NCBI RefSeq assembly: GCF_029338395.1
Contig: NZ_CP119812.1
Span: 62,001-126,000, forward strand
From: Halorussus caseinilyticus
GTDB lineage: Archaea; Halobacteriota; Halobacteria; Halobacteriales; Haladaptataceae
Length of the DNA stretch: 64,000 nt
Reading direction: 5' to 3'
Position numbers and translations under genes: made by a program. The notes under the pieces were generated by a model, which worked only from the letters and a program-made list of their open reading frames with translations, was not told where the DNA came from and ran no database searches. This document shows positions 6,142 through 63,328 of this stretch, piece by piece. Numbering within the stretch: the stretch's first letter is position 1; each line of letters begins with the position of its first letter.

Positions 6142-7626
6142 ATGTCGGATAAAACATTTGCAGTTACGACCGAGAACGAATTCACCTCGTTGGCGGCTAG
6201 TCCAGACGAACCGGCCAGAATTCCGGTCGAAGTTCGGACGACAGTCGAAGACCCTTACGTCGCGTATCGAAACGCACGCGACGGTCCGGACGGAGTGTAT
6301 CTCGAAACGACCGGAGAACAGGACGGTTGGGGGTACTTCGGCGTCGAACCGGAATACTGGGTCACGAACTCCAGCGACGAACCCGATAGTTTCGACCAAC
6401 TCGATACCCTGTTAGACGACGAGCGACTCGTCCGTGGCGACTGCGACGTGCCGTATCCCTGCGGCGCGTTCGGGTGGCTTTCGTACGACATCGCCCGAGA
6501 GATAGAAGACCTCCCGGACACGACCGAAGACGACCGGAACCTCCCGCGGCTCCAGTTCGGCGTCTACGACTTAGTTACCGCGTGGGAGGACACGGGAGAC
6601 GCCGACCGAACAGAACTGCGAGTTACGTGCTGTCCGGAGGTCAGTCCGGGCGACGACTTCGCATCGAGATACGCCACTGCGCGTAACCGCCTCGAAAACC
6701 ACGTCGAGAAGATTCACAGCGGCGACTCGGGCGTAGAGCCACCGAAATCTGACAGTTCGGTTACGTTCGAGAGCGAGGCCGGGAAAGAAGAGTACGCCGA
6801 CAGCGTTCGGAAGGTGAAACACTACATCCGAGAGGGCGACACGTTCCAAGGAAATATCTCTCAACGACTCTCCGGACCCGCCGCGGTCCATCCCGTCAAA
6901 GTGTTCGACGCCCTCCGCGAAGTGAACCCGGCACCGTACTCGGGGCTTCTGGAGTTCCCCGGTGTGGACCTAGTGAGTACCAGCCCCGAGTTGCTCCTCC
7001 ACTGCGAGGGCGACCGACTTGTCACCGAACCGATTGCAGGCACCCGACCGCGCGGCGAGACGCCCGAAGAGGAGGAAGAACTCGAAGACGAATTGCTGTC
7101 GAGCGAGAAGGAACACGCCGAACACGCGATGCTCGTGGACCTCGAACGAAACGACCTCGGGAAAGTCGCCGAATACGGGTCCGTGGAAGTGACCGACTAC
7201 AGGCGCATCGACCGCTACTCGGAGGTCATCCACACGGTTTCGGTTGTCGAAGGGACCCGCCGCCCGGAGAAGACGATTCCCGACTCTATCTGTGCCGTCT
7301 TCCCCGGCGGAACGATTACCGGCGCGCCGAAACCGCGAACGATGGAAATCATCGACGAGGTGGAATCGACCCGACGCGGCCCCTACACGGGGAGCATCGG
7401 TGTCATCGGGTTCGACGAGCGAGCGACCCTCAACATGACGATTCGGACGCTCGTTCGGCGACACGACAACTACTACCTCCGCGTCGGTGCGGGAATCGTT
7501 CACGACTCGGACCCGGTTTCGGAGTTCTACGAGACGCTGGACAAAGGGCGCGCGCTCATCAACGCCATCAGCGACGCCTTAGACGACGAAACCGAACTCG
7601 AACTCGAAGTGGGTGACGAACAATGA
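6142..7626 (+). CDS. pabB: Chorismate-amidating synthase component I (PabB, TrpE-like active site)
   Basis: A 494-residue chorismate-binding enzyme that with its amidotransferase would add ammonia to chorismate. The C-terminal catalytic half carries FPGGTITGAPKPRTMEIIDE (from residue 387), which is closer to PabB than to TrpE, and GPYTGSIGVIGF. The chorismate-site motif at 297-301 is PIAGT, with Ala299 where Lys-dependent PabB enzymes have Lys (PIKGT) and TrpE has Ala. Neighbouring pabC and pabA favour p-aminobenzoate synthesis, but anthranilate production cannot be excluded. It overlaps pabA by four bases (ATGA), indicating translational coupling. Confidence 0.8.
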   Translation: MSDKTFAVTTENEFTSLAASPDEPARIPVEVRTTVEDPYVAYRNARDGPDGVYLETTGEQDGWGYFGVEPEYWVTNSSDEPDSFDQLDTLLDDERLVRGDCDVPYPCGAFGWLSYDIAREIEDLPDTTEDDRNLPRLQFGVYDLVTAWEDTGDADRTELRVTCCPEVSPGDDFASRYATARNRLENHVEKIHSGDSGVEPPKSDSSVTFESEAGKEEYADSVRKVKHYIREGDTFQGNISQRLSGPAAVHPVKVFDALREVNPAPYSGLLEFPGVDLVSTSPELLLHCEGDRLVTEPIAGTRPRGETPEEEEELEDELLSSEKEHAEHAMLVDLERNDLGKVAEYGSVEVTDYRRIDRYSEVIHTVSVVEGTRRPEKTIPDSICAVFPGGTITGAPKPRTMEIIDEVESTRRGPYTGSIGVIGFDERATLNMTIRTLVRRHDNYYLRVGAGIVHDSDPVSEFYETLDKGRALINAISDALDDETELELEVGDEQ

Positions 7627-8222
7627 TTCTGGTCATCGACAACTACGACTCGTTCGCGTACAACCTCGTGCAGTACATCGGTGAGTTCGCCGAAGAAATC
7701 GTCGTGCGAAGAAACGACGCCATCGATGTCGAAGAGATTCGAGAGATGGACCCGGACGGAATCGTCGTCTCTCCCGGACCCGGTACACCCCAAGACGCGG
7801 GCGTCTCCATCCCGATTTTCGAGGAGACGGAGATTCCCGCACTCGGCGTCTGTCTGGGCCACCAAGCTCTGTGTGCGGCGGAAGGCGCGTCGGTCGGCCA
7901 CGCGCCCGAAGTCGTCCACGGGAAACCATCTCAAATCACCCACGACGGGAAGGGCATTTACGAGAACTTGGACGAGGTTATCCGCGTCGGCCGGTACCAC
8001 TCGCTGGCGGTCGAAAACGGGTCGCTCCCCGACTCGCTCGAAGTGACGGGACAGACCGAAGGCGAGGAGGAAGACCGCATCGTGATGAGCGTCCGTCACG
8101 AGTCGAAACCCCACATCGGCATCCAGTACCACCCCGAGAGCATCCTGACCCCGCCCGGCAAGAGGTTGATACAGACCTTCTGCGAGAAGTGCCGTTCGGG
8201 TGCGTTCACCGGCTCGGAATAG
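7623..8222 (+). CDS. pabA: Glutamine amidotransferase, PabA/TrpG component II
   Basis: A class I glutamine amidotransferase that releases ammonia from glutamine for its PabB-type partner. The catalytic triad is visible: Cys77 in GVCLGHQ, and His170 and Glu172 in QYHPES. The SPGPGTPQDAG oxyanion loop is intact. At 199 aa it is a stand-alone domain of normal size. The ATG overlaps the pabB stop, so the two are co-translated. TrpG and PabA cannot be told apart by sequence alone; assignment follows the neighbours. Confidence 0.85.
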   Translation: MILVIDNYDSFAYNLVQYIGEFAEEIVVRRNDAIDVEEIREMDPDGIVVSPGPGTPQDAGVSIPIFEETEIPALGVCLGHQALCAAEGASVGHAPEVVHGKPSQITHDGKGIYENLDEVIRVGRYHSLAVENGSLPDSLEVTGQTEGEEEDRIVMSVRHESKPHIGIQYHPESILTPPGKRLIQTFCEKCRSGAFTGSE

Positions 8223-8358
8223 TCGCTACCGGGTTCAGACGGGTTCGTGACAGACGTTACCCAGTACACCTCCCCAGGATATTTATTCGAGACGTTTCTT
8301 TTTACAGTTATAATTTTAGAGCGAATAATTTAAGTCGTCGAAATTTGTGGTATCAGAT

Positions 8359-8793
8359 ATGGTCGTAGGACCTGCCCACCACTACGGAGTCAACGTGTCC
8401 GACATCGAGCGTTCAATCGAATTCTATCGAGACGTTCTCGGACTGGAGTTGCTACGGGAGGAAAAGGAGCTGAGCGACCACCACGAAGAACTCCTCGGCG
8501 TGGAAGGAGTCGAGGGGACTTTCGCGGTTCTGGAAGGAAACGGGATGAAGTTCGAACTGAAGTCCATCGACAAGCCCTCGAACAAGAGCATCAACGCGAT
8601 GCGGTCGCCCATCGACGTTGGTGACGACCACTTCTGCTGGGAAGTGGACGACATCGACGCGAAGTACGAGGAACTGACCGACAAGGGCGTCGAGTTCCTC
8701 GGCGAACCCAAGTCGGTCGGCACCGTCAAGTCGCGGGTCGCCTACTTCTACGACCCCGACGGAAACGTCCTCGAACTCGTCGAACCCGAGTAA
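8359..8793 (+). CDS. VOC-superfamily protein (glyoxalase/dioxygenase fold)
   Basis: A 144-residue protein of the vicinal-oxygen-chelate fold with two beta-alpha-beta-beta-beta modules. It opens with HHYGVNVSDIERSIEFYRDVLGL and closes with VAYFYDPDGNVLELVEP, the typical paired metal-ligand strands. Candidate ligands are the early His, the central H in DDHFCWEVDD and the terminal Glu. Members include methylmalonyl-CoA epimerase, glyoxalase I and extradiol dioxygenases; the sequence does not decide between them. The ATG at 8359 is preceded by an AT-rich tract (8286-8340) with TATA-like sequence and is preferred over the GTG at 8347. Confidence 0.8.
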   Translation: MVVGPAHHYGVNVSDIERSIEFYRDVLGLELLREEKELSDHHEELLGVEGVEGTFAVLEGNGMKFELKSIDKPSNKSINAMRSPIDVGDDHFCWEVDDIDAKYEELTDKGVEFLGEPKSVGTVKSRVAYFYDPDGNVLELVEPE

Positions 8794-8980
8794 CGAGAAT
8801 CGCCGCAAAGAGTTCTTCGAGAGGCGCGATTGGCCCATCTCTGTCTCTCATCTCTCCTATCGCTGTCCCGTGTTCTGTATCTCTGTTCTGTGTTCTATCG
8901 CTCGATAGCGACTGATTCCTCGGTCAGTACGACCGAAGAACCCAACGGGATTATGTAGATAGCAGTGGTCGTTTCGACCG

Positions 8981-9217
8981 ATGGCGAGCAAGCGCGCGAC
9001 GGTGACGTGTCCGGACTGCGGTCTCGAAGAGACGTTCACAAAACTCGGGACAGCACGGTCCTGCATCGAAGACCACCGCACGGAGACGGGCCACGAAGCG
9101 ACGTGGGAGCTACACCAACTCGACGCGGGCGTCGAGCGCGCTGGCGACGACGCTGGTGTCTGTGGCCGACCGGGTTGTACGAACGAGAATTCACCTCTCG
9201 TTCAAGACGGCCGGTGA
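8981..9217 (+). CDS. Small zinc-finger protein (CPxCG type)
   Basis: A 78-residue acidic protein with CPDCG near the N-terminus, a DHRTETGHEATW stretch containing two His, and CGRPGCTNE near the end. These can form one or two zinc sites. Haloarchaea encode many such small zinc-finger proteins of unknown function. It stands alone, just upstream of the decayed origin and orc1 remnant. Confidence 0.6.
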   Translation: MASKRATVTCPDCGLEETFTKLGTARSCIEDHRTETGHEATWELHQLDAGVERAGDDAGVCGRPGCTNENSPLVQDGR

Positions 9218-9298: not shown

Positions 9299-9407
9299 AC
9301 ACCACGTTTCCAGTGAAATTCGCATTTTGGGTGGGTGGGACGAGTGCCAGCGTTTCGGAGTCGTGCGACCCAGAAACGCTGGCACCGATTCACTGGAAAC
9401 GTGGTGT
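9299..9407. other. Nested inverted repeats, ORB-type origin boxes before the orc1 remnant
   Basis: A perfect 19-nt inverted repeat (ACACCACGTTTCCAGTGAA at 9299-9317, complement at 9389-9407) encloses a second perfect 13-nt inverted repeat (GTGCCAGCGTTTC at 9344-9356, complement at 9373-9385). The GTTTCCAGTG core matches haloarchaeal origin recognition boxes and the boxes at 24.15-24.62 kb. The right arm ends two bases before the ATG of the orc1 remnant, so box and initiator are still paired although the gene is broken. Confidence 0.7.
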
Positions 9408-9409
9408 CA

Positions 9410-10078
9410 ATGAGTGACTTCAACGACCTCTTTTCTCGGGAAGACCTAATCTTCGCCGACGAGGAACTCCTCGAAATCAACCACCTTCCCGACGACGACG
9501 ACCGTATCGTCGGCCGCGGCGACGAGATTCAATCGCTTGCGAACGCGCTCAATCCGGCGCTCTTCGGCCAGTCCCCGAGCAACGTCCTCCTCTACGGCAA
9601 GACCGGCACCGGCAAATCACTCCGTGCGAAACACGTCTCGCGGCAACTCGTCCCCGAGGCGGCGCGCGACGGCATCACCGTCGGCAGAGCCTACGTCGAT
9701 TGCGCCCAAGACACGACCGAGACGAAAGCCGTCTAGACCATCGCGCACAGTCTCAACACCGACGATACCGACATCTCCATCCGGAAAAGGCATCTCCACC
9801 TCGACCTACTACAAGCGACTCTGGCGCATTCTCGACGGCGAGTACGACGTGGTGGTCATCATCCTCGGCGAAATCGACAACTCGAAGACGACGCGATTCT
9901 CGTGCAACTCTCGCGGACAAACTCGGCCACTGCAAACTCGGCACTATCGGAATCAGCAACAAAATCAAGTACAAAGACCGGATGGACGAGCGAGTCAAGT
10001 CGAGTCTCTGCGAACGCGAGTTCGTCTTTCCGCCGTACGACGCGACTCAGCTCCGGGCCATCATGGAGGCCCGCGACG
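9410..10078 (+). pseudogene. orc1: Decayed Orc1/Cdc6 initiator gene
   Basis: The first 109 codons are a good Orc1/Cdc6 N-terminus with Walker A LLYGKTGTGKS, then a TAG stop at 9734-9736. Recognisable pieces continue in other frames: STYYKRLWRILDGEYDVVV and ILGEIDNSK (a Walker B in which the usual Asp is Gly), then DDAILVQLSR, then GTIGISNKIKYKDRMDER through REFVFPPYDATQLRAIMEAR. At least one nonsense mutation and three frame changes rule out a working protein. Homology stops near 10078 where moxR sequence begins; the winged-helix C-terminus is missing. Confidence 0.85.
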
Positions 10079-10420
10079 ACGCTCCAGACGATTCAGTCGC
10101 TCGTGGAGCGAATCGAGGTGGACCGCGACGTGATGTCGTACGTCGTGGACATCACGCGCGAGACGCGCTCGGACGCACGGACGCAGGTCGGCGTCTCCCC
10201 GCGGGGCACTCAACGGCTCTTCGAGACGGCGAGGACTCGCGCGCTACTCGACGGCCGGGAGTACGTCGTCCCCGACGACGTGAAAGCGGTCGCTCGCCCG
10301 GTCGTGGCCCACCGACTCGTGCTGACCGCGGACGCCCGCGTCGAGGAGACGACCCGCGACGAGGTGGTCGGTGACATCCTCTCGGCGGTGTCGGTGCCGA
10401 CGGTCGAACGGCGAGCGTAG
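10079..10420 (+). pseudogene. 3' fragment of a MoxR-type AAA+ ATPase gene
   Basis: From about 10079 one open frame reads TLQTIQSLVERIEVDRDVMSYVVD, then VGVSPRGTQRLFETARTRAL and DGREYVVPDDVKAVARPV to a TAG at 10418-10420. This is the lid domain of MoxR ATPases, chaperone-like proteins normally encoded beside DUF58 genes. The Walker A and B regions are absent; upstream sequence belongs to orc1 instead. It points toward the DUF58 operon (convergent), whereas a functional moxR would normally lead that operon. Confidence 0.8.
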
Positions 10421-10539: not shown

Positions 10540-11253
10540 CTACTCGTGGAGTGCCACGCTGAGCAGGACGATGGCGAGGACGAGCAGTGCGAGCGCCGGG
10601 AGAGAGAGACCGGTCGAACCCACCCCGTCCACGAGTTCGCCCGTCAGGACCGCCCCGCCGCCGACCACGCCCGCGCCGACCGCGTGGACGCCCTCGGTGC
10701 GCCACGTCGAGGCGGCCCGGCCCAACTGCTCGCCGACGTTGATGGCGTGTTCGCCGATGTCCCACCCGACGACGGCCACCGCCGCGCCAGCGACGAGTGT
10801 CCCGGCCGGGACCGCCCGGAAGATTCCCGCGACCAGTACCCCGACCAAGACGAGTCCAGCGCCGAGTTTCACCAGTCTGCGCGACCCGCGACCCCGCAGT
10901 GGGACCAGTCCGACGCCGAGCAGGAACACCCCGAGAAGACCGGGAAGCGCCCGCAGGATGCCGGGCAGGTCGCCAGCCATCACCGCGCCCGCGGGGACGC
11001 CGAGAAGCGCGACGACGCCGCCGACGCCGAGCGCGAGCAACGACAGAAATCGCCGCCCTCGGGACCGGAGTTCGTCGCCCACGGCCATCGCCCCTTGACC
11101 CGCGAGAACGACGCCGACCGCCGGACCGCCGGGACCGCCGACGAGAACGGTGCCGAGAGCGAGCGCGAACGCCGCGAGCGCGGCACTCGGACGCGTCGGT
11201 CGCCGTCTAACGGCGACCGACGCGCCGTCGCGCGCTACCGATTTCTCCGTCAC
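10540..11253 (-). CDS. Multi-pass membrane protein, last gene of the DUF58 operon
   Basis: A 237-residue protein that is almost entirely hydrophobic Ala/Gly/Leu/Val helices (about seven segments) after a short basic N-terminus, ending SVALHE. Its start lies inside the end of the DUF58 gene (47-bp overlap), so it is co-transcribed and probably co-translated. A protein of this kind closes the moxR-DUF4129-DUF58 operon in haloarchaea; its function is unknown. It probably forms part of a membrane complex with the DUF58 and DUF4129 proteins. Confidence 0.75.
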   Translation of the reverse strand: MTEKSVARDGASVAVRRRPTRPSAALAAFALALGTVLVGGPGGPAVGVVLAGQGAMAVGDELRSRGRRFLSLLALGVGGVVALLGVPAGAVMAGDLPGILRALPGLLGVFLLGVGLVPLRGRGSRRLVKLGAGLVLVGVLVAGIFRAVPAGTLVAGAAVAVVGWDIGEHAINVGEQLGRAASTWRTEGVHAVGAGVVGGGAVLTGELVDGVGSTGLSLPALALLVLAIVLLSVALHE

Positions 11254-12511
11254 AGCGCCCCCGTTCCCCGGCTTTTGCGACCGCCGCGGCGAGTCCGTCG
11301 TCGGCCGACCAGTCCACGACCGGAATCTCGCTCCGCCGGAGCGACGCGATTCGGTTGGTCCGCTCGGTCGTCGCCAGCCTTCGGCCGGGCGACTCGCCGC
11401 CGGTCGCGTCGGGACTCACGACCGTCACGCTGTGGCCGTGAGCCTCCAACTTGTGTGCGGCCGTCGCCGCGCCGTCGTCGCACAGCGGCGAGAACAGCGT
11501 CACCTGCGCGTTCGGCGGCAACTGACGCCGGATGCGGGCGATTTGGTCGTCGATTGGCGGCCCGGCGTCCTCTCCGGGGGGCGCGGCGGCCAGCGCGGGG
11601 TGGGTGGCGAGCAGTCGCATCGCCCGCGACTCGTGGTCGCTCCCGGCGCTCGGGGCCAACCAGCAGTCCTCGCGGCCGAGCGCGGCCACCCCGACCCGGT
11701 TCCGGCCGGTCAGGAGCGCGCCCGTCAGTCGCTGTGCGGCGGCCACGCTCCGGACGACTGCGTGGGGTTCTCCCGCTGGCGCTCGGTAGGACTCGGGCCG
11801 GGCGTCCACCAGCAGGACGACCGACGCGCTCCGCTCCTCGCGGTACTCGACGGTCGTGAGTTCGCCGACGCGGGCGAACCGTTTCCAGTCGATACGACTC
11901 ATCGAGTCGCCGCGCCGGTACTCTCGCGTCTGGTGGAACTCGATGCCGACGCCGCCGTCGTCGGTCAGCAGGTCGCCCGCGTCCTCGATGGCGAGGTTCC
12001 GCTTGGGCGGCGTCCCGCGGGCGACGGCGCAGTCGATTTCGGTCTCGGCGGCCACCGTGGTCTCTACCTCGTGTTCGCCGCTCGGGTCGCGGACGACCAC
12101 CGTCGCGGGGTCGAAGCCGTGTTTGCCCTCTTCGGCGCTCACGGCGTAGCTGAACGTCGCTTCCCCGCCGGGTCGGAGCAGGCCGCCGTATCGCGGCGAC
12201 CCCGACGTGACCGTCAGCGCGGGCGGCACGCCGTCCACGACGCGCAGGTCGAAGAGGGTGTCGTCGCCGACGTTGCGGACGGTGACGGTGACTTCGACCG
12301 ACTCGCCCGGCGTCGGCGCGCGGTCGCTCAGTCGCCGGTCGATTTCGAGGTCCGGCGTCGCTGGCGGCGCGGGCGAGAGTCGCGGGTAGACCGCGAACGC
12401 GACCCCGACGGCCGACACGAGAACGAGGTCGGGCCGGTCGGCCGCGAGACCCACGCCGCCGACGAGCAACGTCACCGCGACGATTCCTCGCCAGCGCCGG
12501 GTCGTCGTCAC
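11207..12511 (-). CDS. DUF58 family protein (vWA-like), MoxR partner
   Basis: A 434-residue protein with two N-terminal membrane helices, a beta-sandwich (~60-170) and a DUF58 core. The core signature is HQTREYRRGDSMSRIDWKRFAR followed by VVLLVDARPES, a vWA-type strand with DxxxS-like metal-site residues. DUF58 proteins are coupled to MoxR ATPases and are thought to assemble or activate surface complexes. The GTG at 12511 is chosen because it overlaps the upstream stop (GTGA), as at the other junctions here; longer starts give an implausibly basic Arg-rich N-terminus. Confidence 0.85.
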   Translation of the reverse strand: MTTTRRWRGIVAVTLLVGGVGLAADRPDLVLVSAVGVAFAVYPRLSPAPPATPDLEIDRRLSDRAPTPGESVEVTVTVRNVGDDTLFDLRVVDGVPPALTVTSGSPRYGGLLRPGGEATFSYAVSAEEGKHGFDPATVVVRDPSGEHEVETTVAAETEIDCAVARGTPPKRNLAIEDAGDLLTDDGGVGIEFHQTREYRRGDSMSRIDWKRFARVGELTTVEYREERSASVVLLVDARPESYRAPAGEPHAVVRSVAAAQRLTGALLTGRNRVGVAALGREDCWLAPSAGSDHESRAMRLLATHPALAAAPPGEDAGPPIDDQIARIRRQLPPNAQVTLFSPLCDDGAATAAHKLEAHGHSVTVVSPDATGGESPGRRLATTERTNRIASLRRSEIPVVDWSADDGLAAAVAKAGERGRCDGEIGSARRRVGRR

Positions 12512-13113
12512 CGTCCTCCCCCCGTTTCGTCCCCGGCGTCCTCCGATTCCCGCTCCGCAATCGCCGCCACCGCCCGTCGCGCGCCGCGGCGACTCCACGG
12601 TTCGGCCCGCAGGAGCGCCGCTATCCGCGGTTCGACGCCCGGCCCGCGACCGGCGAGGAACGAGGCCGCCTCGTCGTCGTCGGTCCACGACCCGTCGTCG
12701 AGTCGCTCTCGGGCCTCCTCGCGGGAACACTCTCCGCGGCGGACCCACGTCTCGACGGCGGCGGTTCGGAGTCGCTCGCGGAGTCGCTCGCGCCTCTCGT
12801 CGCCGACGACCGGCGCGAGCGCGGTCCTGCTTTCGAGCGCTTCGTCCACGCCGTCGCCCGCCGCGGGCGCAGTCACCGGGCGCTCGGGCGTCGGCGTCTC
12901 GGTCTGGCGGAGGGTGTCGCTCCGCCCCGACATCAGGGCGGACCCGGCGACGAGCAGGCCCACGCCCGCGAAGGTTGCGACGACGAGGTAGTCGTTGCCC
13001 AGCGCCGTCAGCATCGCTTCGACTGCCCCGTCCGCGGGACCGCCGCCGAGAGTCAGCGCGACTCCGAGCGCGAGGACCCCCGACGCGCCCGAGGCGACGC
13101 GGTATCGCTTCAC
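12508..13113 (-). CDS. Two-helix membrane protein of the DUF58 operon
   Basis: A 201-residue protein with two N-terminal membrane helices (VLALGVALTLGG region and LVVATFAGVGLLVAG), then an acidic and Arg-rich cytoplasmic domain (ERRERLRERLRTAAVETWVRRGECSREEA). The GTG at 13113 overlaps the DUF4129 stop by four bases, which fixes the start. Its position between DUF4129 and DUF58 is conserved in haloarchaea. No enzymatic motif is seen. Confidence 0.72.
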   Translation of the reverse strand: MKRYRVASGASGVLALGVALTLGGGPADGAVEAMLTALGNDYLVVATFAGVGLLVAGSALMSGRSDTLRQTETPTPERPVTAPAAGDGVDEALESRTALAPVVGDERRERLRERLRTAAVETWVRRGECSREEARERLDDGSWTDDDEAASFLAGRGPGVEPRIAALLRAEPWSRRGARRAVAAIAERESEDAGDETGGGR

Positions 13114-13967
13114 TGCTGAACCTCCAACTGCGACCGAACTCGGTCGAGGTTCCGCTCGGCGCGCTGGCGGCGCTCGTCGGTCACGCGAGCGCCGCCGTAC
13201 CGGACTTCCTCGAACAGCGAGGTCAGCGTCTGTGCGGCGTCGGCGTCCACGCCGCGACGACGTGCCGCCGCCGCACACTCCCGCGGGGTGAGGTCGCGCC
13301 TGTCCCCGAGGTCCAGTCGCTCGACCATCTCGAACCACGCCGACGCTATCTCGTTCTGCGGGTCGGGTTCGCGGGTCTCGTCGTCGCCGTCGCGCGACGG
13401 CGACGACGAGACCCGCGAAAGCAGTCGGTCGCGGAACCTGACCGCCGCGGCGACCACTGCCAACAGGACGAGGAGTGCCAAGAGTCCGAGCAAGAGGTCG
13501 AACAGGTCACGGAGCAGAGACAGGAGTCGTTCGAGTAGACTCGGTTCCCGCAGGGTCTGTTCGGCACCGGACTGGGACTTCGACCCGGACCCGCCGCCCT
13601 GATTTCGCCGGTCGCCGCTTCCGGCGCTCTGCTGTCTCTGCCCGTCGCCGCTCCCGGCGCGCTTGTTCCGCTGGCCGTCGTCGGGTTTCGACTTCGCGCC
13701 GGTCCGCTGGCCGTCGTCGGAGGGTTTGGCCCCGACGCTCTCGGACCCGGACCCGCCGTTCGAGTCGCCGGACCCCGACTTGCCGCCGTCGATGGCGTCG
13801 TCCAAGTTCTTGGCCTGTCCCGTCCCGATGGGTATCTCGTCGTAATCGACCTCCGTGACTTCCTCGGGGTCGGTCGAGACTGTCGAGTCGAGGGTGGTGG
13901 AGGTAGCTCCGATGGCGAGAACACAGCACAGCGCGACGACTGCCGTGAGAACCGTGTCCGCCTTCAT
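13110..13967 (-). CDS. DUF4129 membrane protein, first gene of the DUF58 operon
   Basis: A 285-residue protein with an N-terminal signal or anchor helix, a long Gly/Ser/Asp-rich low-complexity outside segment (~60-140), one membrane helix (LLLGLLALLVLLAVVAAAV) and a C-terminal DUF4129 domain (AWFEMVERLDLGDRRDLTPRE, ERNLDRVRSQLE). DUF4129 domains occur with transglutaminase-like and DUF58 proteins in MoxR operons. The expected moxR gene is missing upstream; the only moxR sequence here is the fragment at 10.1-10.4 kb. Confidence 0.75.
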   Translation of the reverse strand: MKADTVLTAVVALCCVLAIGATSTTLDSTVSTDPEEVTEVDYDEIPIGTGQAKNLDDAIDGGKSGSGDSNGGSGSESVGAKPSDDGQRTGAKSKPDDGQRNKRAGSGDGQRQQSAGSGDRRNQGGGSGSKSQSGAEQTLREPSLLERLLSLLRDLFDLLLGLLALLVLLAVVAAAVRFRDRLLSRVSSSPSRDGDDETREPDPQNEIASAWFEMVERLDLGDRRDLTPRECAAAARRRGVDADAAQTLTSLFEEVRYGGARVTDERRQRAERNLDRVRSQLEVQQ

Positions 13968-22867: not shown

Positions 22868-24142
22868 TCAGTCGGGGGAGAGGGTGGCATCGATGTCCGA
22901 GGAGAGGACGATTTCGTCCGACGACCGGACGACATCTTCGATACCTTCGTGGACGCCGACGTAATCAACGAGGTCGGCCATGGCGACCACGACGGTTTCG
23001 AGGTCGTGTTTGAGGTCGTGGTCGTGGTACTTCCCACCTGACAGTCCCTCGTTCTGTGGAGTGCGGGCGGTGATGCTGAGGTCCGCGAGTTCTTTCAGGA
23101 AGTCCCGGACGCGGCGCGCCGACCGTGGGTCGCTTCCGATATAGTGGCAGAGCGATTGGTAGCGGTCGTAGACCGTCGAGGAACTGACGGGTGTTTCGTC
23201 GTCGCCTTCGAACGTCGCCAGCGCGTACAAGGTGAGTTGTTGGTGTTCGGCGAGGTCGGCGATGCCGTCCATGACTTCTTCGCGTTCGAGTTTGTCGCGT
23301 GCTTTCTCGACGTGATGGTCGTGAACGTGGTCGGCGTCCGCGGCGCGCGCGATGTCGCCCGCTTCTCGGAGCAGGTCGAGGGCTTTCCGGGCGTCACCGG
23401 CGTCTTGTGCGCCGTACGCGGCACAGAGCGGGAGTACGTCGTCGGCGAGAGCGTCGTCGTGGAAGGCGGTGTCGGCGCGTTGCTGGAGTACGTCTTGGAG
23501 TTCGGGGGCGTCGTAGGGCGGGAACGAGATAGCTTTCTCGCAGAGCGACGACCGGACTTTCGCCGAGAGGTTGTCGCGGAACGAGAGGTCGTTGCTGATG
23601 CCGATGATGCCGACTTTCGCGTTCGTGATGTGTTCGTTGCTCCGGGCGCGCGGGATTTGGTAGAGGATAGAATCGTCGTCGCCGATGTTATCAACTTCGT
23701 CGAGGACGACGAGGATGGTGCCGCCGACGGCGTCGAGTTCGTCCCAGAGGTATTCGTAGACTTTGTATCCGGGGTGGCCGGTTTCGCTGATTTGGTCGCT
23801 TGGGTCGCGGAGTTCGTTGACGAGTTTCACGGCGATTTGGTAGCTTTTGCTGAGGTCTTCGCAGTTGAGGTAGATGACGGTGAGGTCTACGTCGTACTGG
23901 TCGGCGTCTCGTTGGAGGCGGTCGAGGAGGAATTTGGTGGCGGCGGTTTTTCCGACGCCGGTTTTGCCGTAGAGGAAGATGTTGGATGGGCGTTCGCCGT
24001 TGATGACGGGTTGGAGTGCTTCGTGGTATTGTTCGAGTTCGGTGTCGCGGCCGACGATTGTGTCGGGGGTGTAGTCTTCGAAGAGGGTGTCGCGGTTCTT
24101 GTAGAGGTCGTTGTCGGGGGTGAAGCTGATGTCGGGTGGCAT
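22868..24142 (-). CDS. orc1: Orc1/Cdc6 replication initiator
   Basis: A 424-residue AAA+ origin-binding protein that opens the replicon origin. Walker A is LYGKTGVGKTAATK (58-70), Walker B ILVVLDEVDN (143-152), sensor region GIIGISNDLSFRDNL, arginine region SSLCEKAISFPPYD, and a C-terminal winged helix (TVYDRYQSLCHYIGSDPRSARRV). All essential parts are intact, unlike the copy at 9.4 kb. Eight box-like repeats lie directly upstream of its start, the usual arrangement of a haloarchaeal origin. Confidence 0.92.
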   Translation of the reverse strand: MPPDISFTPDNDLYKNRDTLFEDYTPDTIVGRDTELEQYHEALQPVINGERPSNIFLYGKTGVGKTAATKFLLDRLQRDADQYDVDLTVIYLNCEDLSKSYQIAVKLVNELRDPSDQISETGHPGYKVYEYLWDELDAVGGTILVVLDEVDNIGDDDSILYQIPRARSNEHITNAKVGIIGISNDLSFRDNLSAKVRSSLCEKAISFPPYDAPELQDVLQQRADTAFHDDALADDVLPLCAAYGAQDAGDARKALDLLREAGDIARAADADHVHDHHVEKARDKLEREEVMDGIADLAEHQQLTLYALATFEGDDETPVSSSTVYDRYQSLCHYIGSDPRSARRVRDFLKELADLSITARTPQNEGLSGGKYHDHDLKHDLETVVVAMADLVDYVGVHEGIEDVVRSSDEIVLSSDIDATLSPD

Positions 24143-24145
24143 TGT

Positions 24146-24618
24146 GACGTTTCCAGTGTTGGTTACGGGGGTGGCGTTTCCAGTGCTTTCCGGACAGTGG
24201 CGTTTCCAGTGCTAGCGGTTTAATCGTTGCCCTCCGTCGAGATATTTCTCCACACCACCGCTTCCACTGCTACCACACCACCGTTTCCAGTGCTTTCTGA
24301 CACACCATCGTTTCCACTGCTTGGTTGAAGAGAACACGACGAATGGCGGAATCTCGGCAGGAACGGCGTCAGAAGACGGATTCTATGGCACGAGGCTGTC
24401 GAGTGAACAGTGAGAGACCACCGTTTCCAGTGCTTCCGGCGCTTCGACTGGACGCTCAGAAAATTCCCTCTTTAGTAGCATCAACCTTTATTAGAACAGA
24501 ACGTGAGTTAGTCCGTACTGGCGAATTTTCTACACAACAAACAGCCGTTATTAGTTTGGATTTTGATAGGTTCGCGGTGTCACCCACAGCAATACGAGAA
24601 AGCACTGGAAACGATGGT
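24146..24618. other. Replication origin with ORB-type repeats
   Basis: Seven direct copies of a box with consensus ACCACCGTTTCCAGTGCT begin near 24146, 24172, 24198, 24253, 24278, 24304 and 24418, and an inverted copy (AGCACTGGAAACGATGGT) lies at 24601-24618. Between the last direct and the inverted copy is an AT-rich run (24460-24560) suitable for unwinding. Inverted boxes around an AT-rich element next to orc1 are the classical haloarchaeal origin layout. No gene is supported here. Confidence 0.8.
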
Positions 24619-25319
24619 CTCTCTCTCCCCCCTTCCTTCTCTCCGAGTTTGACTCCCACGACTGTTTCACTCGGCACAGCTACTCTGGCTCCACAACTAC
24701 TCTGGCTCGTAGGAGTTCGTCGTGTCGAGCCAGTACACGTCGTCGGCGTCACGCTGATACACGGTAGCGAAAAGGACGAACCCGTTGAGGACGACACGCG
24801 GAACGTGTTGAGGTCGGCACGCGGCATCTATTCGCGTTCTCACGATGTTGGTTAGCCGGTTCGTCCGCGTTTTGTCCGAGACCGACGGGCGGCGACGTGG
24901 GCGTAGCTGGCGTCCCGGTCGGCGTCAAGGCCGGTCGCTCGCAGGTGCCGGTCGCTAACCAACAAGACGGGTCTCAGGTGGTGCTGTGTTGGTTCGTCGC
25001 GGTGGCCTGCTCGTCCAGTCCTGACTCTCACGATTCGGGGCGCGGTCTTGGTCGCTATACTGGCCGTGTTCTTCCCACGTCGGGTTTTGAAGCGACTCGG
25101 CCAGACAGGTGACTTCCGAGTTTCACTGTCGCCGTTCCAGACTTCGAGCATACTCGGCCGTTTCCGGGATAGCCGTGTCGAAGTCCGGCCCGAACCCGTC
25201 GCTAGAAACCACCTCATCGCTCTCCGGCCGTCTCACCCAGTTCCGTCCGACGCCATCTCGGAACTTCTACCACCCCAACCCCACAAAGCTGTGAGTTCCT
25301 CTTTTCGAGAACCCAAATC
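24619..25319. other. Intergenic stretch between origin and array A1
   Basis: No convincing gene. It contains a half-site TGTTGGTTAG at 24846-24855 and one full 42-bp inverted-end element at 24955-24996 (listed separately). The stretch just before A1 includes AACCCCACAAAGCTG near 25275, possibly a further decayed repeat. Confidence 0.4.
24955..24996. repeat. 42-bp inverted-end element, copy 1
   Basis: Begins CTAACCAACA and ends TGTTGGTTCG (one end is imperfect). In reverse orientation its centre reads CCTGAGACCCGTCT, nearly the same as copy 2. Confidence 0.7.
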
Positions 25320-54250: not shown

Positions 54251-54649
54251 TCCGCTCGTACTGCATTAATTGAACTATCTATACAGCTAACTGTAGTCGT
54301 GTATCTAGCGTATAGAGACGTAGCGTCACTAATACGTTCTGCTCGGCGAACCTGAAGCACGGTCTACCGAGTCGAGAAACGAGACCTCGGAATAGGGTGG
54401 ATAGCCGAGTCTCAACACGTAAGTTAGAGGGTAGAAACGTGTAAGTAGGCGATTCACCGGAGGGATATGGAATAGATTAATGGCGGGGCGGCGAGATGGT
54501 CGGGTAGAGCGCATGTACCGGAAAATTGACCGTTCATTCCAACCAACCGCACGGCCTACTTACTTCTCAAATTGCGCTAACTAGACAGTGCCTGAGAGTC
54601 ACAGCTGTTTGTTTTCGTACTTGATAACTGTTCAGATCGCAGTTGTTGT
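54251..54649. other. Intergenic region with a solitary IS6-type end
   Basis: No gene is supported. A 14-bp AACTAGACAGTGCC at 54579-54592 is the exact complement of the IS6 end at 63382, pointing leftward, so it may be the remains of an excised or deleted copy. Confidence 0.45.
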
Positions 54650-55174
54650 TTATTGATTGCTTAGCACGTCAAGTCGCTCTTTCGCGGCCTCTAACTCTTC
54701 TCCAAGTCGGAGCAAGTAATCATCTTTTTTGAGGTCAGGATTTAGTTTGAGGACATCACGGTAGTACTCCTCAGAAGCCTGAACAAGTTCAGTAATCCAC
54801 TCCTGTTTTGTAACTGTAAATGTCCTTTCCATTTCCCAACGTTCTTCAGGGTTTTCTGCACCTTCAAGATGGAGACAATGAGTAAGATCAACTGTCTCGT
54901 CGTAAGGCTCAGCCACAAGATACGATGGACCATTCCGAAATGTAACCCTCGTCTCAGATCCGGAGACAATTGCTTCTGTTTGAGCAAGTAAACGTGCCAA
55001 ATCTTCTGACAGCCACACACCAACGTAAGTGTCATCAGTTCCAATGAGATACTCTCCGTCAATCTTAGTTTTCAGATGACCAAATGGGTCTGAGTCGTTT
55101 TCGTCGCAAACCCGCTGCCGAAAGTTCTCGGCATACGTGATTTCAAACTTGACAGCAGACGTTGTCGGAACCAT
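54650..55174 (-). CDS. Putative immunity protein of the second toxin module
   Basis: A 174-residue acidic cytoplasmic protein (VKFEITYAENFRQRVCDENDS, ERTFTVTKQEWITELVQAS, ending in a short coiled coil). No signal peptide. It begins five bases after the toxin stop, the usual place for an immunity gene. Not related by eye to the two TPR-like immunity proteins upstream, as expected for a different toxin. Confidence 0.5.
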   Translation of the reverse strand: MVPTTSAVKFEITYAENFRQRVCDENDSDPFGHLKTKIDGEYLIGTDDTYVGVWLSEDLARLLAQTEAIVSGSETRVTFRNGPSYLVAEPYDETVDLTHCLHLEGAENPEERWEMERTFTVTKQEWITELVQASEEYYRDVLKLNPDLKKDDYLLRLGEELEAAKERLDVLSNQ

Positions 55175-55178
55175 ACCG

Positions 55179-57101
55179 TTACTTCACTCCTTGTCCCGGG
55201 ATTACTCTTCGAACCGAACTACCTTTCTCTGGAAAGGCAGTTTCAATGGAACCGTCCGGTTGCACGACAACCCGCATTTGGGTGATTCCTATGTCATCGA
55301 ATCCATGTTCACTCGGATCTAGCATATATTCAACTTTCCCCCGGGCACTTCCCCCAGACGTTTTCCCGCGTCGGACGGTTAAATAGATTAGTTTTTTAAC
55401 CTCTGCTGGGGAGAGTTCGTTCGGTATTTTTTCGCCTTTAACGGTCTGCCCTATTGGAAAGAGTGAGGTAACTTGCTCACCATCTTGAGAACCAGTGAGA
55501 TGCCTAACAGCAATATGGAGCCAACCATCTCCACCTGCGTTGGCATCACCCAACTCAAGCCAAATTGTCTCCGACTGTGAATCATATTCGGTGTTTTCCG
55601 GTTTAACTACAAGTCCCGTCTCACTAAGGTCGGCTCCCTCGTCAGCAATCTTAACTAAATCTTCTACTGTTACGTCGTCACTGACGTAGTAGTCATCGTC
55701 GTTTCCACGACTCTCTAGTAGCTTCGAAATCCGCCGGAGGTCGTTGCTCCCGATTCGATTGTTCTCGTAGGCTTGTAGGAGTTTCCGACGTTCTGCACGA
55801 CTCAGTTCACCATTCCGTTCCAATTTAGCGAATCGTTTGGCGACATCGGGGTCAATGTCGTCGGCCTGCCGCATGATAGCGACGAAGTTGTCGCCGCCGT
55901 CCGCGATGAGTTCGGGGTCGTCGGTCCGTGCAAGCAGTCGCCCGACTACTCGCTGGTCGGCCGACTGCATGCCGTCGATTTGCGAGTGCGTACTCGCCTC
56001 TGCGTTCGAGAGTCGCTGGCGTGCGTCGTACTTCCCGGCGGCGGTCTTCACGCCCGCCACCACCCGGCGTCCGCTCTTCTTGCTCAAGTGCCAGCTTCCC
56101 TTCGCCGCTCGCTCGCCGAGTTCGAACGTCACCCGCTTTGCGCGCCCGGTCGTCCGCTCCTTCGCCACGTCGTAGTACCGTTTCGCTTCCGAGAGGCGTC
56201 CGTTGCGGTCGAGGCGGTCTACGAGGTCGGCGAATCGGTCGGAGTTTTTCACCGCGGTCTGGGCTTGTCCGCCGACCACCAGTTGGACGGCTTGGAACGC
56301 CACGTAGCCCGTGTACCAGCCGACGCGGAACGCATCATACTCGGCTTGCTCGCTCGGGTCCGACCTGTCGTAGGGATTGTTCGTCGCTTGTTTCGCTTCG
56401 AGACTCTCGACCATCTGGCGGGGGAGTGTGGCGAGAATCTTGTCGATGAGTCCGAGTCGGTCGACGAGAGTGGCGAGTTGCTCGAACGCTCCGAGGAACG
56501 CGAGTGGCTGGTCGGTGAGCGCTTTGACCGTCTGCGCGGTGGAACCGGCTCCGACGGTGAATCCCGAGAGCATTCCGGCGAACATCGAGGCGCGTTCCGG
56601 GCCGAGGTCAGACTGGGTGGTGAGTTCTTTGACGGTCGCGCCGTAGACGTTCGCGCGTTCCATCGCCACCTGCTGGCGGCGGTTGTCGTGGGTGTCGCGG
56701 GCGTGAACCACGACGCTCGTCCCGGTCAATCCGTCGAGAATCGTCTCGGGCAGACCCGTCTCGAACGCGCGGGACTGACTCCCGTGGCGGTCGCCACCCC
56801 ACGTCGTCCGCGTCTGGACCTCGCCGTTTTTCGTGAGCCGTGAGGACGCCACCCCGCTCGGGTCGTCCACCCGGTAGCCGACCGCGTACGACGTATCCCC
56901 GCTGAACGCGTCTTTGCCGAACTCGGCGCGGAACACGTCGATGGTCGGCCCCTCGTAGTCGGCGAGCGTCGGGTCCGACCCGCCACGTCTCTCCTCGGCG
57001 TCGGCGATACCGTCGCCGTCCGTGTCGGCGCGCGTCGGGTCGGTGCCCAGGTCGAGTTCTCGACCGTCGTCGAGGCCGTCGTCGTCCGAATCCTGCCGCA
57101 T
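55179..57101 (-). CDS. Second polymorphic toxin module, 5'-truncated
   Basis: A 640-residue ORF starting in the middle of calcium-binding-type (TSP3-like) repeats (DSDDDGLDDGREL, DTDGDGIADAEE), then a beta domain, a long helical linker (~240-430) and a C-terminal domain from ~520: GWLHIAVRHLTGSQDGEQV, VKKLIYLTVRRGK, ITQMRVVVQPDGSIETAFP. The His-RH pair and the final GSIETAFP strand suggest a BECR-fold RNase (EndoU/colicin-type). There is no signal peptide; upstream sequence is shifted out of frame, so it looks like an orphan cassette. Confidence 0.65.
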   Translation of the reverse strand: MRQDSDDDGLDDGRELDLGTDPTRADTDGDGIADAEERRGGSDPTLADYEGPTIDVFRAEFGKDAFSGDTSYAVGYRVDDPSGVASSRLTKNGEVQTRTTWGGDRHGSQSRAFETGLPETILDGLTGTSVVVHARDTHDNRRQQVAMERANVYGATVKELTTQSDLGPERASMFAGMLSGFTVGAGSTAQTVKALTDQPLAFLGAFEQLATLVDRLGLIDKILATLPRQMVESLEAKQATNNPYDRSDPSEQAEYDAFRVGWYTGYVAFQAVQLVVGGQAQTAVKNSDRFADLVDRLDRNGRLSEAKRYYDVAKERTTGRAKRVTFELGERAAKGSWHLSKKSGRRVVAGVKTAAGKYDARQRLSNAEASTHSQIDGMQSADQRVVGRLLARTDDPELIADGGDNFVAIMRQADDIDPDVAKRFAKLERNGELSRAERRKLLQAYENNRIGSNDLRRISKLLESRGNDDDYYVSDDVTVEDLVKIADEGADLSETGLVVKPENTEYDSQSETIWLELGDANAGGDGWLHIAVRHLTGSQDGEQVTSLFPIGQTVKGEKIPNELSPAEVKKLIYLTVRRGKTSGGSARGKVEYMLDPSEHGFDDIGITQMRVVVQPDGSIETAFPEKGSSVRRVIPGQGVK

Positions 57102-57305
57102 CGGGTCGCTTCTTTGTTTAGTTTCTCTTGTCCGGCGAACTTCGTCACTTCGTCTCCATCTACCACAATTTTCATTTCGCCTTGTATGGTTCCGGGAAGG
57201 AGACTTCCATCAGATTCTAGATTTCTAAATCCGATTGAAACGATACAGCTTGTCAAATATTCATAAAATTAAGCGAGTTCATTGTAGGATGTTGGTTGTT
57301 CTTTT
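57102..57305 (-). pseudogene. Out-of-frame upstream remnant of the second toxin
   Basis: Another frame (57256-57120) reads VDGDEVTKFAGQEKLNKEA, which would join smoothly to the start of the 640-residue ORF (DPMRQDSDDDG) after a small frame change. It supports a longer ancestral gene, broken by an indel near 57115. Confidence 0.45.
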
Positions 57306-57920
57306 TCACTCTGGAAGATTCCACTCGTCAGAAGAAACTACGTTGTCGATTAATTCCGGTAGGTTTTCCCGCTTATATTCTAACCAGTCTACAAGCTTTC
57401 CCTGAGTTGACTTAGTAATTAGCTCCTCATTTTCACCAGCAGCCAGAACTGTAGTACTGAAGATCGCTTGTACACTCATGATGGGGCCCTCTGCGAAATG
57501 AGCGTTCGGATTCCCTACTTCACGGTAAACCTTTTCAGCGGAATCATACGCCCTAGTAGCACCTTCAAGGCCCGCAACTAATCGAAAATCGCCAATAAAT
57601 TCATGCCAAACACCACGTTCAGCTTGGTCAGGAGGATGTGTCGGCTCAGGTCTTTCCCTCATGCGTGCTGCGTATTCCTCTGCGAGTTGGATACCAAGTT
57701 GAGCAGCAAATCGGCACTGCCGATTTTGATCGGCAAGCCGATAGCAGAGGCACGCTTTAAATAACATCCGTAATTCCATTGCCCAACTAGCAGAACCGAA
57801 CCATTGTCCGGCCTCCTCAAAGCTAGCTTGAACGTAGGTATCTCCAGCAACACCAAACCTACGGTCCTTTGCAAGAGATGTTGCTTCCTCTTCTAGTTCG
57901 CTACGACGGTTAGTTGTCAT
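57306..57920 (-). CDS. TPR-like immunity protein, paralogue 2
   Basis: A 204-residue all-helical, acidic protein. It shares with its neighbour at 58067 the patterns CYRL, HEFIGDFRLVAG, AYDSAEKVYREVGNP.AH and DWLEYKRENLPELID. The start ATG overlaps the TAA of a lost toxin tail (TAATG), so it was the immunity gene of that toxin. Likely cytoplasmic and binds a toxin tip. Confidence 0.55.
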   Translation of the reverse strand: MTTNRRSELEEEATSLAKDRRFGVAGDTYVQASFEEAGQWFGSASWAMELRMLFKACLCYRLADQNRQCRFAAQLGIQLAEEYAARMRERPEPTHPPDQAERGVWHEFIGDFRLVAGLEGATRAYDSAEKVYREVGNPNAHFAEGPIMSVQAIFSTTVLAAGENEELITKSTQGKLVDWLEYKRENLPELIDNVVSSDEWNLPE

Positions 57921-57997
57921 TAGCAGTTAACCTCCTCTAACGGGTCGTCTTTGTAGTTTCTTGCGGCGTCCTCTGCCTTATCAGCACTGTCGAAGAA
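57920..57997 (-). pseudogene. 25-codon tail of a lost toxin tip
   Basis: In frame after a TAG, the text reads FFDSADKAEDAA and ends KDDPLEEVNC, then TAA. It resembles the end of the 1468-residue toxin (FYKTIDDAEKDI ... NNVDC). Its stop overlaps the start of the immunity gene, so the rest of the toxin was deleted while the junction survived. Confidence 0.6.
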
Positions 57998-58066
57998 CTA
58001 TATCAGCTATCGTTTTAGTGTTGATATAGTGGTGAGGACATATTGGGTATACAAATTTCTATAAAT

Positions 58067-58687
58067 CTATTCCGATTGAGAAATGAGCTTGTCAAAGGCA
58101 TCCGGGAGGTGTTCTTGTTTGTATTTAACCCATTCACTAAATGTCATCTCTTGCATTATTTTTCTCCAATTCTCGACATCACCATCAGATTCGTGGAGAA
58201 TCTGTTCAAAAAATTCGACTAACCAGATGTGTTCTTGTTCACGATGCGCTAGTGGTGGGTCTCCCTCTTCAAAGTATATTTGCTCCGCCCGTTCATACGC
58301 AGACACTTTCTCGGTGAGAATACCAACTACTCGGAAATCGCCAATGAACTCGTACCATGCGGCGTACCGCGCTCTATCGTAAGCAGTAGTACCACCGATA
58401 TTTTTTGTTCTATCAAGTAACTCTTCTGCAATGAGTACACCTTGCTGGCATCGATTCCTTGCACGGTCAGTACAACCACCAAGTCGATAACAGGTTGCAG
58501 CATTAAGAAGATAATATTCGCCATGGCTCACGTTCTTCCCACGATGGGTAGGGGGCCAGTCGGCTAAGTAAATATATGCGGCAGCAGTATAGCACTCACC
58601 TGCTTCAACGAAATCGCCATTTTCTCGATGTTGTTGTGCGGCCTGTTCATGCTCATGTGCTTTGTTGAAAGACATGTATTCACTCAA
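58067..58687 (-). CDS. TPR-like immunity protein of the 1468-residue toxin
   Basis: A 206-residue helical protein (AAQQHRENGDFVEAGECYTA, AWYEFIGDFRVVGILTEKV, WVKYKQEHLPDAFDKLIS) starting seven bases after the toxin stop (GTG; an in-frame ATG at 58675 is also possible). Helical hairpin repeats look TPR-like. No secretion signal, so it would protect inside the producing cell. Confidence 0.6.
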   Translation of the reverse strand: MSEYMSFNKAHEHEQAAQQHRENGDFVEAGECYTAAAYIYLADWPPTHRGKNVSHGEYYLLNAATCYRLGGCTDRARNRCQQGVLIAEELLDRTKNIGGTTAYDRARYAAWYEFIGDFRVVGILTEKVSAYERAEQIYFEEGDPPLAHREQEHIWLVEFFEQILHESDGDVENWRKIMQEMTFSEWVKYKQEHLPDAFDKLISQSE

Positions 58688-58693
58688 AGGTAG

Positions 58694-61600
58694 TTAGCAG
58701 TCAACGTTATTGTCTTCGTCATACACTACTTCTTTGTCGTTCTTTGGGATATCCTTTTCTGCATCGTCAATCGTTTTATAGAACCCTCCGTCATTACCTG
58801 TAAGAACCGTGCGTAATACGTGATACGCATCAGATACAGTATCGGCGACGGCCATGATAACCTTATTCGGGCCGAGTCGAAGTATATAGTATCGCTGTTG
58901 ACCCGCATCAACGATTTTTGTTGGATTTTTCAATATTTCTCGAAGTGTCGGGACCTTATCGATTGGTTTAGACTCACGAAGTGAGTGTTCAGGATTATCG
59001 TGCTTCGTTATATCGATTGTATCATCACAATCCTCGTTATATACTGGCTGTTCACTCGCCGCCATTATCGTGCCACCGACAATCGAAATCACGATTTCTT
59101 CGAGGTAGTCGGTCTTGCCGATGACAGTGTAGTCGCCCTCGCCGTGCTTGTGGACCGTCGGATTGTTCTGCAGGACCTGCTGAAGTTCGGCTTCGGTAAT
59201 ACTCGTCGTCTGGGCGATGTACTGCCAGCCATGCCCGCGAACCACCTGCGCACCTGTCCGTGGGTCTGTCCCGGTCTCGGCCGCGCCCGTCGGGAGCGTC
59301 ACCGTCGTCGCTAACGCGGTTTCGCTCACCGGATACTGCGCTTCAACGCCTGTCACGGGTTCGTTCCTGACGGTCTCACCGCTCGCCGAAATATACTCGT
59401 TGGTGACGTACGCGCCGCCTGCGGCGACACCTAATCCGAGGAGGGCCGCCGGAATCCGAACTACTTCGTCCGGTATCAAATCAGGTGAGGGTAGCGACCC
59501 AGCGGTCCCGACTGCGACACCGGCCGCCGCGAGTTCTGCGCCAGCGCCCTCCGTCACGTCGATGAGTACGACGCGCTCGTTGCCGTGGGCGTCCGTGACG
59601 TTCACCCAGTATCGGTCCGGTGGTTCGTTGAGCAGTCCGTGGTCGTCGAACTCGACTCGGTAGTCGTCGCTAGCCTGTTTCGTGACTGTCGCCTTGCTCG
59701 CGTTCCAATACGCCGAGTCGAGGATACTGTCCGGCGCGTAGCGCGGCTTCGACCGCACTGTCACTGCAGACTGGTCGCTGACAGTAAACGCGATGTGTTC
59801 TTTGAAGTTGTCCGAGTAGATGTCAGAGACTCCCGGCGGATTGTCCTCTATCCAGATACGTGGGTCCGACGAGTCGCGGAACCCGTCGCCGTCGGTGTCC
59901 GCGTCCAAGACCTCGCTGTGCCAGATTCGTCGCTCCTCGTAATCGGAAAGCCCGTCACTATCGGTATCGAACGCTGTCGGGTTACTCTGAAGCTCGAAAT
60001 ATCCGCCATCGACGTACCGCGGGATGTAGCCTGCCACTTCCTCGCCGTCCGACAGTCCGTCCCCGTCCGTGTCGGCGTCGTACGGGTCGGTGGACACGCG
60101 CCCGGTCCCGGTCTTGACGCCGAGTTGCTCTAACCCGTTCGTCAGGCCGTCGCCGTCACTGTCGCGTTTCACCTCGACACTCGCCTTTCCGGGACTCGTG
60201 CCTGCGAGGTTCTCGGTGTGAATCCAGACGGATACCTGCTGGCCGTCGGGATTCTCGAACGTCTCGTCGATGTAGGCGTGGTCGGTGTTTCGCTCGCCGT
60301 CGTCGCCCGACAACTCCAAGACGGTCCGCGTTTCCGACCCGACCGACACGGCGACTTCCACACTCGCGTTCGATTCTTCCGCGAACGCGATAATCGGCAT
60401 CGTGAACGTGACTTCGACCGTATCCGACGGAATCGTGAGCGACTTCTCGTTATCAGACGGGTCGAACTGCTTGGGCGGCGACGGGTCACTCGTTCCCTCG
60501 TCGTCATCGTCATCATCGTCGTCACTGTCGTCATCGTCGTCGCCGTCTCCACCGTTCACGGGACATTCGCCGTTATCCGGGAAGCGCGGACCTGTACACG
60601 CCGCGCTCACGTCGTCGGAGTAGAACAGCGACGAGTTCTGGCCGATGACTGCGCGGCCTGCGCCGGTCGAACACGACCCCGTGCAGTTCCACCCTGAGAG
60701 GTCACTGAACGACTCGTTCAGCGCGTATTTGGGCTTGGGTTTCGCACGTTTCTGCATGTAGTTCTGCCATGCGGTCTGGTTCATGGCGACGAACGTCGAG
60801 AAGTGCGGGGTCGTCCCCGTCACCGAGTCGTTTTCGGCGTCCACTTCCGAGGGGAGTTTGACGTACGTCTGCAGTTCGGGGTCGTAGGTGTAGACCGCTA
60901 AGTCCGACTCGTCGCCGACCGCCTGCTCGTCGTAGTCGATGGAGAGGTTCGCTTGCTCGAACTCGGCGTCTGCATCCACATCGAGAACTTCCGATGCGGA
61001 GGCGTTGGCGACCGTTCCGGTCTGAATCCGGTCGTTGGTCTCGTTCTGAATCGTTACCGTGTCCGCGACGTTGCCTTCGCCCGAGATGTTCACCGCCGCG
61101 CCCACCGACTCGTTTGTCGTCTCGGTCGCAAACGTTTCGTTCCCGTCCAACACGCCGTCGCCGTCGGTGTCCGCCACAGTTGGGTCGGTGCCGACTGCGT
61201 ACTCGTCGGGGTCGCGCAAGCCGTCGCTGTCGGTGTCCGGTTCCAGTGGGTCGGTCCCGTTGGCGAGTTCCGCCGAATCGTTCAACGTGTCGCCGTCGGT
61301 GTCGTTTTCGACGGGGTTGGTGTTCGCGGCCTGTTCGCGGCGGTTCGACAGCGAGTCGTTGTCGAGGTCTTCGGCCGGGTCTCGAACCGTGTCGTTGTCG
61401 GTATCATTCGTGAGCGGGTCGATACCCCGGAACTGGAGTTCGAAGCCGTCCCGCAAGTCGTCGCCGTCGGTGTCGTTGTCCAGCGGGTCGAGACCGAACC
61501 GGTACGCCTCGTAGACCGTCTCCCCGTCGCTATCGAAGTCCTCCGCCCCGTCAGTCACGTTGTTCCCCGACTCGTTGAACGAAGTCCGCGACGCGTTGCT

Positions 61601-63100: not shown

Positions 63101-63328
63101 TGCGGTCGTGTTCTCACCAGCATCTAAAGTGTCTATTGAGTATTATAAAATCTGATACTGAATGGAAGATTCAAATATCAGAGATGAATGAGACCTGTTA
63201 TAGCAGGTAGTTAAATACTGAAAGACTGTTACTCGGTTGCTCGGTCAGTGGTGACGAGTAACGAACCAAGCGGTGGTTTCGCTGAGGGGAATAGTCACGG
63301 CCGGGTGTCGCCCCGCCAGTACCGAACA
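63101..63328. other. Upstream region of the toxin gene
   Basis: AT-rich gap before the MITE remnant; the toxin promoter should lie near 63125-63170, where AGTATTATAAAATCTG occurs. No gene is supported. Confidence 0.4.

Follow-up and report, generated by a model that had tools for sequence, protein, structure and literature searches.

The locus at 9.3 kb in the stretch of DNA analysed here (the window: 64,000 nucleotides of Halorussus caseinilyticus, bases 62001-126000 of the 150,959-bp contig C4) is very probably what remains of a replication origin that lay next to orc1 on a circular plasmid of Halorussus (about 116 kb) and was lost beside a redundant second origin system. It is homologous to the intact orc1 locus of a relative, carries lesions, deletions and a relaxed substitution pattern, and lies in a genome that has no intact cognate Orc1.

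The proposed course of events begins with an ancestor that would have carried an intact origin of a plasmid clade, in which several origin recognition boxes (ORBs) stood on either side of the AT-rich unwinding region that precedes orc1, and very probably also the second, unrelated Orc1 and origin that are now found at 22.9-24.6 kb. Given a redundant initiator, the first system would have lost selection. The orc1 gene would have gained inactivating mutations and the origin would have lost about 510 bp of DNA between its outer boxes; removal of about 3.9 kb would then have joined what was left of orc1 to the 3′ end of moxR next to it. On sequence grounds, we infer that the 9.3-kb origin no longer fires, that plasmid replication is now carried by the 22.9-kb system and that the decay took place in this order.

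The initiator pseudogene

The reference for an intact locus is that of Halorussus salinisoli LT46 (contig SZNP01000012.1; locus L029).

9410..10082, + strand: psi-orc1, a plasmid-clade orc1/cdc6 pseudogene, delimited by alignment with L029, with PF13191 on its open N-terminal part

An ATG at 9410 opens an Orc1/Cdc6-like frame that stops at a TAG at 9735, and nucleotide identity with the intact orc1 of L029 is 85% up to 10082. The first-pass annotation, made from the letters of the window, had described a broken Orc1 frame, and alignment with L029 bears this out: besides the stop there are three deletions, of 2 nt near 9782, of 1 nt near 9880 (AAA to AA) and of 13 nt near 9920, and the Walker-B motif carries a D153G substitution (IILDEID to IILGEID). 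The break had been placed in the middle of the ATPase domain; it is found instead just inside the lid domain, at residue 228-229 of L029 Orc1, where the lid starts at 214-221. Most of the lid and the entire winged helix are missing, and psi-orc1 does not provide the initiator with intact Walker motifs, lid and winged helix that belongs to a functional haloarchaeal origin.

Surviving boxes and lost origin DNA

The DNA immediately upstream of psi-orc1 contains the following elements:

9299..9317, + strand: left ORB, ACACCACGTTTCCAGTGAA, identical to the box at 6982 in L029
9318..9388, no strand: remnant between the ORBs, 71 nt; about 581 bp in H. salinisoli, with two more ORBs and an AT-rich region
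9324..9340, + strand: G-rich run TTTTGGGTGGGTGGG after the left ORB, resembling the G-rich run to the right of the left box in L029
9344..9385, no strand: near-perfect palindrome of 42 bp inside the ORB pair, with 20-nt arms, 2 mismatches and a 2-nt loop
9389..9407, - strand: right ORB, separated from the orc1 ATG by 2 bp, at the same orc1-relative position in many clade members

The two boxes (+ and -) form a perfect 19-nt inverted pair, as had been claimed, with ACACCACGTTTCCAGTGAA at both positions and 71 nt between them; by simple arithmetic (64,000 x 200 x 4^-19) such a pair is far beyond chance. Judged by their sequence, the 19-nt boxes are ORBs, of the type used by a widespread clade of plasmid Orc1 proteins. 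Across haloarchaea, nearly all close relatives of psi-orc1 have this box type, ACACCNNGTTTCCRGTGAA, upstream, and these loci are plasmid-borne in the records that state a replicon. The relic belongs to this clade by its 85% nucleotide identity to L029 orc1 and by the position of the right box, 2 bp upstream of the ATG. Its Orc1 family and ORB sequence are those of H. salinisoli LT46, H. vallis, H. halophilus, Haladaptatus and Natrialbaceae plasmids, and members of the clade place the box that precedes the start codon at the same position. They differ from the relic in that the initiator is full-length and is preceded by at least three boxes and an AT-rich region. Across 47 relative loci there are at least three boxes each (median 6), and the highest AT content of any 60-mer upstream of orc1 is 0.58-0.82 (median 0.70).

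In L029, four boxes lie upstream of orc1, one on the + strand and three on the - strand, with an AT-rich stretch between. The window retains the outermost left box and the box preceding the start codon, and about 510 bp between these outer boxes appear to have been deleted. The earlier description of the origin boxes as still intact therefore holds for two perfect boxes, but only two of at least four remain and the AT-rich region is missing. The inverted ORBs of a functional haloarchaeal origin are present, though with fewer boxes than in any of the 47 relatives; its AT-rich unwinding region is not, the highest AT content of any 60-mer between the boxes being 0.42 in the window, against 0.68 in L029 and 0.58-0.82 among the relatives. 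A search of the genome found no other copy of the box and no intact cognate Orc1 for it. Another resident Orc1 was considered as the cognate and rejected, the box being absent at up to 4 mismatches from all 12 further orc1 loci of the genome that were tested (0/12).

By its resemblance to the run in L029, the G-rich run at 9324-9340 may be functionally analogous to it. The 42-bp palindrome nested within the ORB pair folds together with the ORBs at -43.1 kcal/mol (z = -8.8). No second copy of it was found in 293 haloarchaeal genomes, nor in these genomes a paired copy of its 13-nt arm that would mark it as the remnant of an insertion sequence or miniature element, and the arm had no match among viral contigs. 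Its identification as the clade's own origin hairpin was rejected, as the relatives G006, G007 and G017 carry a different dyad, TCCGTGAC..GTCACGGA, beside the AT-rich stretch. This dyad is found in the same setting in several Halorussus origins of psi-orc1's clade (L029 7170-7200, L102 and L105), and is possibly a conserved origin hairpin.

Age of the decay

Substitutions on the psi-orc1 and L029 branches were polarised with four outgroup genes. The psi-orc1 branch has 11 synonymous and 13 nonsynonymous changes, the L029 branch 16 and 4 (Fisher p = 0.03; few changes); at otherwise conserved sites psi-orc1 has 4 synonymous and 11 nonsynonymous changes, against a pooled 50 and 29 (p = 0.011). 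The nonsynonymous excess of about 10 over 505 nonsynonymous sites places inactivation at about 2% neutral divergence, at which about 0.8 hits are expected in the 38 box nucleotides. The probability of two perfect boxes without selection is about 0.46, and their perfection thus carries no evidence of maintenance. Of the two readings first offered for the perfect pair, a maintained site or a recent decay, the second stands, with inactivation dated to about 2% neutral divergence; the first gains nothing from an observation that is uninformative. Recent decay would account for the boxes, and maintenance is needless. DUF58, used as a lineage control, gave p = 0.23 with ORF starts that differed.

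A second origin system 14 kb away

22868..24142, - strand: Orc1 from a different clade, intact, with 38% identity to the relative of psi-orc1
24144..24626, no strand: its origin, with GTTTCCAGTGCT-ended boxes at 24144-24434 (+) and 24600-24626 (-) and an AT-rich stretch at 24460-24580

This origin is complete and lies 14 kb from the 9.3-kb site, and its Orc1 is probably the working initiator of the plasmid. A similar box core had been reported for it, correctly: the 11-nt core CGTTTCCAGTG occurs in its boxes as in those at 9.3 kb, and so does an ACCAC/GTGGT element. The types differ at their 3′ ends (..CGTTTCCAGTGAA vs ..CCGTTTCCAGTGCT), where the 22.9-kb boxes end in CT and the 9.3-kb boxes in AA, and the 22.9-kb boxes with the ACCAC element have one extra base before the core. 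With as many as 4 mismatches allowed, no box of the 22.9-kb type was found at 9.3 kb. Only the core is common to the two, and the site is without the own-type box expected of a target of the 22.9-kb Orc1.

The surviving ORB pair might still be in use, with the 22.9-kb or another resident Orc1 binding it in trans and either firing it as an accessory origin or being titrated by it. The shared core and element and the perfection of both 9.3-kb boxes would fit such a role, as would the findings that haloarchaeal Cdc6 supplied in trans acts on its own origin and that downstream ORB clusters can titrate Cdc6 (PMC3936714). The same work showed that each origin tested in Haloarcula hispanica required its own Cdc6 despite many paralogues (PMC3936714). 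The two box types also differ from each other in their spacing and at the 3′ end, and at the divergence given above perfect boxes are to be expected from chance alone. Moreover, in G007, where one contig has the two Orc1 systems, each intact, the box sets are kept separate, neither type being found at the other system's origin. Continued use of the pair is unlikely. Firing of the 9.3-kb site in trans by the 22.9-kb Orc1 appears improbable because of this cognate dependence, the distinguishable boxes and the missing unwinding region, and the suggestion that this Orc1 could act here in trans is unsupported; it may bind the 9.3-kb boxes without firing. That the ORB pair, G-rich run and palindrome have been retained as a regulatory or titration site for the heterologous Orc1 14 kb away is very unlikely.

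Comparison with known origins

The recent loss of a spare plasmid origin is a known phenomenon and an ordinary fate. In Haloarcula, deficient or disrupted orc/cdc6-adjacent origins are subject to continual gain and loss in variable regions (PMC3528665, PMC4441112), and the 9.3-kb locus groups with these. In such deficient origins, of which Haloarcula hispanica oriC3-cdc6D is an example, a plasmid or island orc1-linked origin has, like the relic, lost ORBs and function via insertion or deletion, and other origins in the cell carry replication; the cited cause for oriC3-cdc6D is transposase disruption and ORB loss, whereas in the relic an initiator pseudogene is joined to moxR (PMC3528665, PMC4441112). 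The dormant origins oriC4-cdc6H and oriP1-cdc6L of Haloferax mediterranei are likewise silent second origins on replicons with more than one orc1, but they keep intact adjacent cdc6 genes and can be reactivated (PMC4595724), whereas the relic has neither an intact initiator nor an unwinding region. What is unusual at 9.3 kb is the orc1/moxR deletion junction and the unique palindrome within the ORB pair.

The locus offers a clean, dated snapshot of a multi-origin archaeal plasmid losing one of its origins, in which the initiator decays under relaxed selection, the unwinding region and inner boxes are deleted and neighbouring genes are taken along. The two box types, which coexist and have a core in common, are a natural pair for testing how Orc1 recognition discriminates in haloarchaea. 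Neither the snapshot nor the box pair overturns current views.

Plasmid setting and assembly quality

The two ends of contig C4 repeat each other over 34.5 kb with 99.9% identity (C4:116450-150959 repeats C4:1-34522), and the simplest view of C4 is thus a circular plasmid of about 116.4 kb whose assembly has a redundant end. The last 9.5 kb of the window (54450-64000) duplicate the contig start, and the psi-orc1/moxR locus falls within the single-copy portion. Over these 34.5 kb the two end copies disagree at 27 places, most of them 1-2 nt indels located in homopolymers or at CTAG. The 1-nt and the 2-nt deletion of psi-orc1 are therefore each uncertain, and either may be an assembly error.

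By extension, the whole locus could be an assembly or sequencing artefact that conceals a real locus intact as in H. salinisoli; the redundant end with its discrepancies is in keeping with this, and the AAA to AA change matches the C4 error type. The first-pass annotation had named an intact arrangement in relatives, revealing an assembly error, as the finding that would overturn decay, and had called for alignment with a relative that keeps both genes. H. salinisoli L029 is such a relative, with intact orc1 and moxR, and its layout is indeed intact, but error of this kind cannot account for a relaxed substitution pattern combined with three larger deletions (13 bp, about 510 bp and about 3.9 kb). 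The nonsense change and the nonsynonymous excess are also unlike the C4 error type, and the flanking genes are open. An artefact is very unlikely, and a genuine relic remains the preferred reading.

Contig C5 of the same genome (loci L038 and L039) has about 19.7 kb, with an orc1, duplicated at 99.8% with small indels. This is probably another untrimmed circular overlap, and one C5 orc1 copy, which looks frameshifted, possibly owes this to the overlap. A third orc1 on the same plasmid is located at C4:56119; no recognisable ORBs were found near it, and about 30 bp upstream is an insertion sequence (L034 15261-15992 = C4:55261-55992) that bears 14-bp terminal repeats, GGCACTGTCTAGTT.

The moxR tail and neighbouring genes

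10082..10420, + strand: moxR tail, lid domain only, ATPase core deleted (PF17863, E = 1.1e-23); 86% nucleotide identity to L029 12179-12517
10540..13967, - strand: DUF7519, DUF58, DUF7269 and DUF4129 genes, intact and convergent, the usual MoxR neighbours
8981..9217, + strand: small DUF7542 gene flanking the dead origin (PF24398, E = 7.5e-37); 80.6% nucleotide identity to L029 6662-6928

At 10082, psi-orc1 joins the last 112 moxR codons directly. The tail has AAA_lid_2 alone and no AAA_3 core, both of which are present in the intact L029 MoxR protein, and it falls short of a MoxR AAA+ ATPase, which combines an AAA_3 core bearing Walker motifs with a lid. That the MoxR lid continues immediately from the Orc1 break is true of the DNA (PF17863) but not of a fused protein, as the end of psi-orc1 and the moxR tail occupy different reading frames and no chimeric protein is encoded. 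An Orc1-MoxR fusion protein was rejected on the same ground: no continuous frame crosses the junction, and the fusion is one of DNA only.

The gene order in L029 is orc1 (7604-8794), DUF7344, an HTH_10 regulator and moxR (11565-12527), followed by convergent DUF7519, DUF58, DUF7269 and DUF4129. Since this layout is intact, about 3.9 kb has been deleted in the window, from the orc1 lid to the linker before the MoxR lid, taking out two genes and the MoxR ATPase core. The word CGCGACG stands at both ends of the deleted segment in L029, which makes deletion through short homology plausible.

Since diverging from H. salinisoli, the moxR tail, whose frame is open, has accumulated 5 synonymous and 2 nonsynonymous changes. 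This would be consistent with a moxR truncation later than the inactivation of orc1; a lid still in use would show equally little decay. That the open frame at 9902-10420 is an expressed, functional lid-only MoxR fragment is nonetheless scarcely credible, for all its openness and substitution pattern, given that it has no ATPase core and no conserved start, that its first 60 residues are out-of-frame orc1, that G007 has no moxR at this place and that the genome contains other MoxR genes. The DUF7519, DUF58, DUF7269 and DUF4129 genes are intact though the local moxR is destroyed, and possibly they are served by a distant paralogue of MoxR. In G007 the block also occurs, there with an intact orc1 and with moxR lost or never gained. 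On the other side of the relic, the DUF7542 gene is also kept upstream of the intact H. salinisoli origin.
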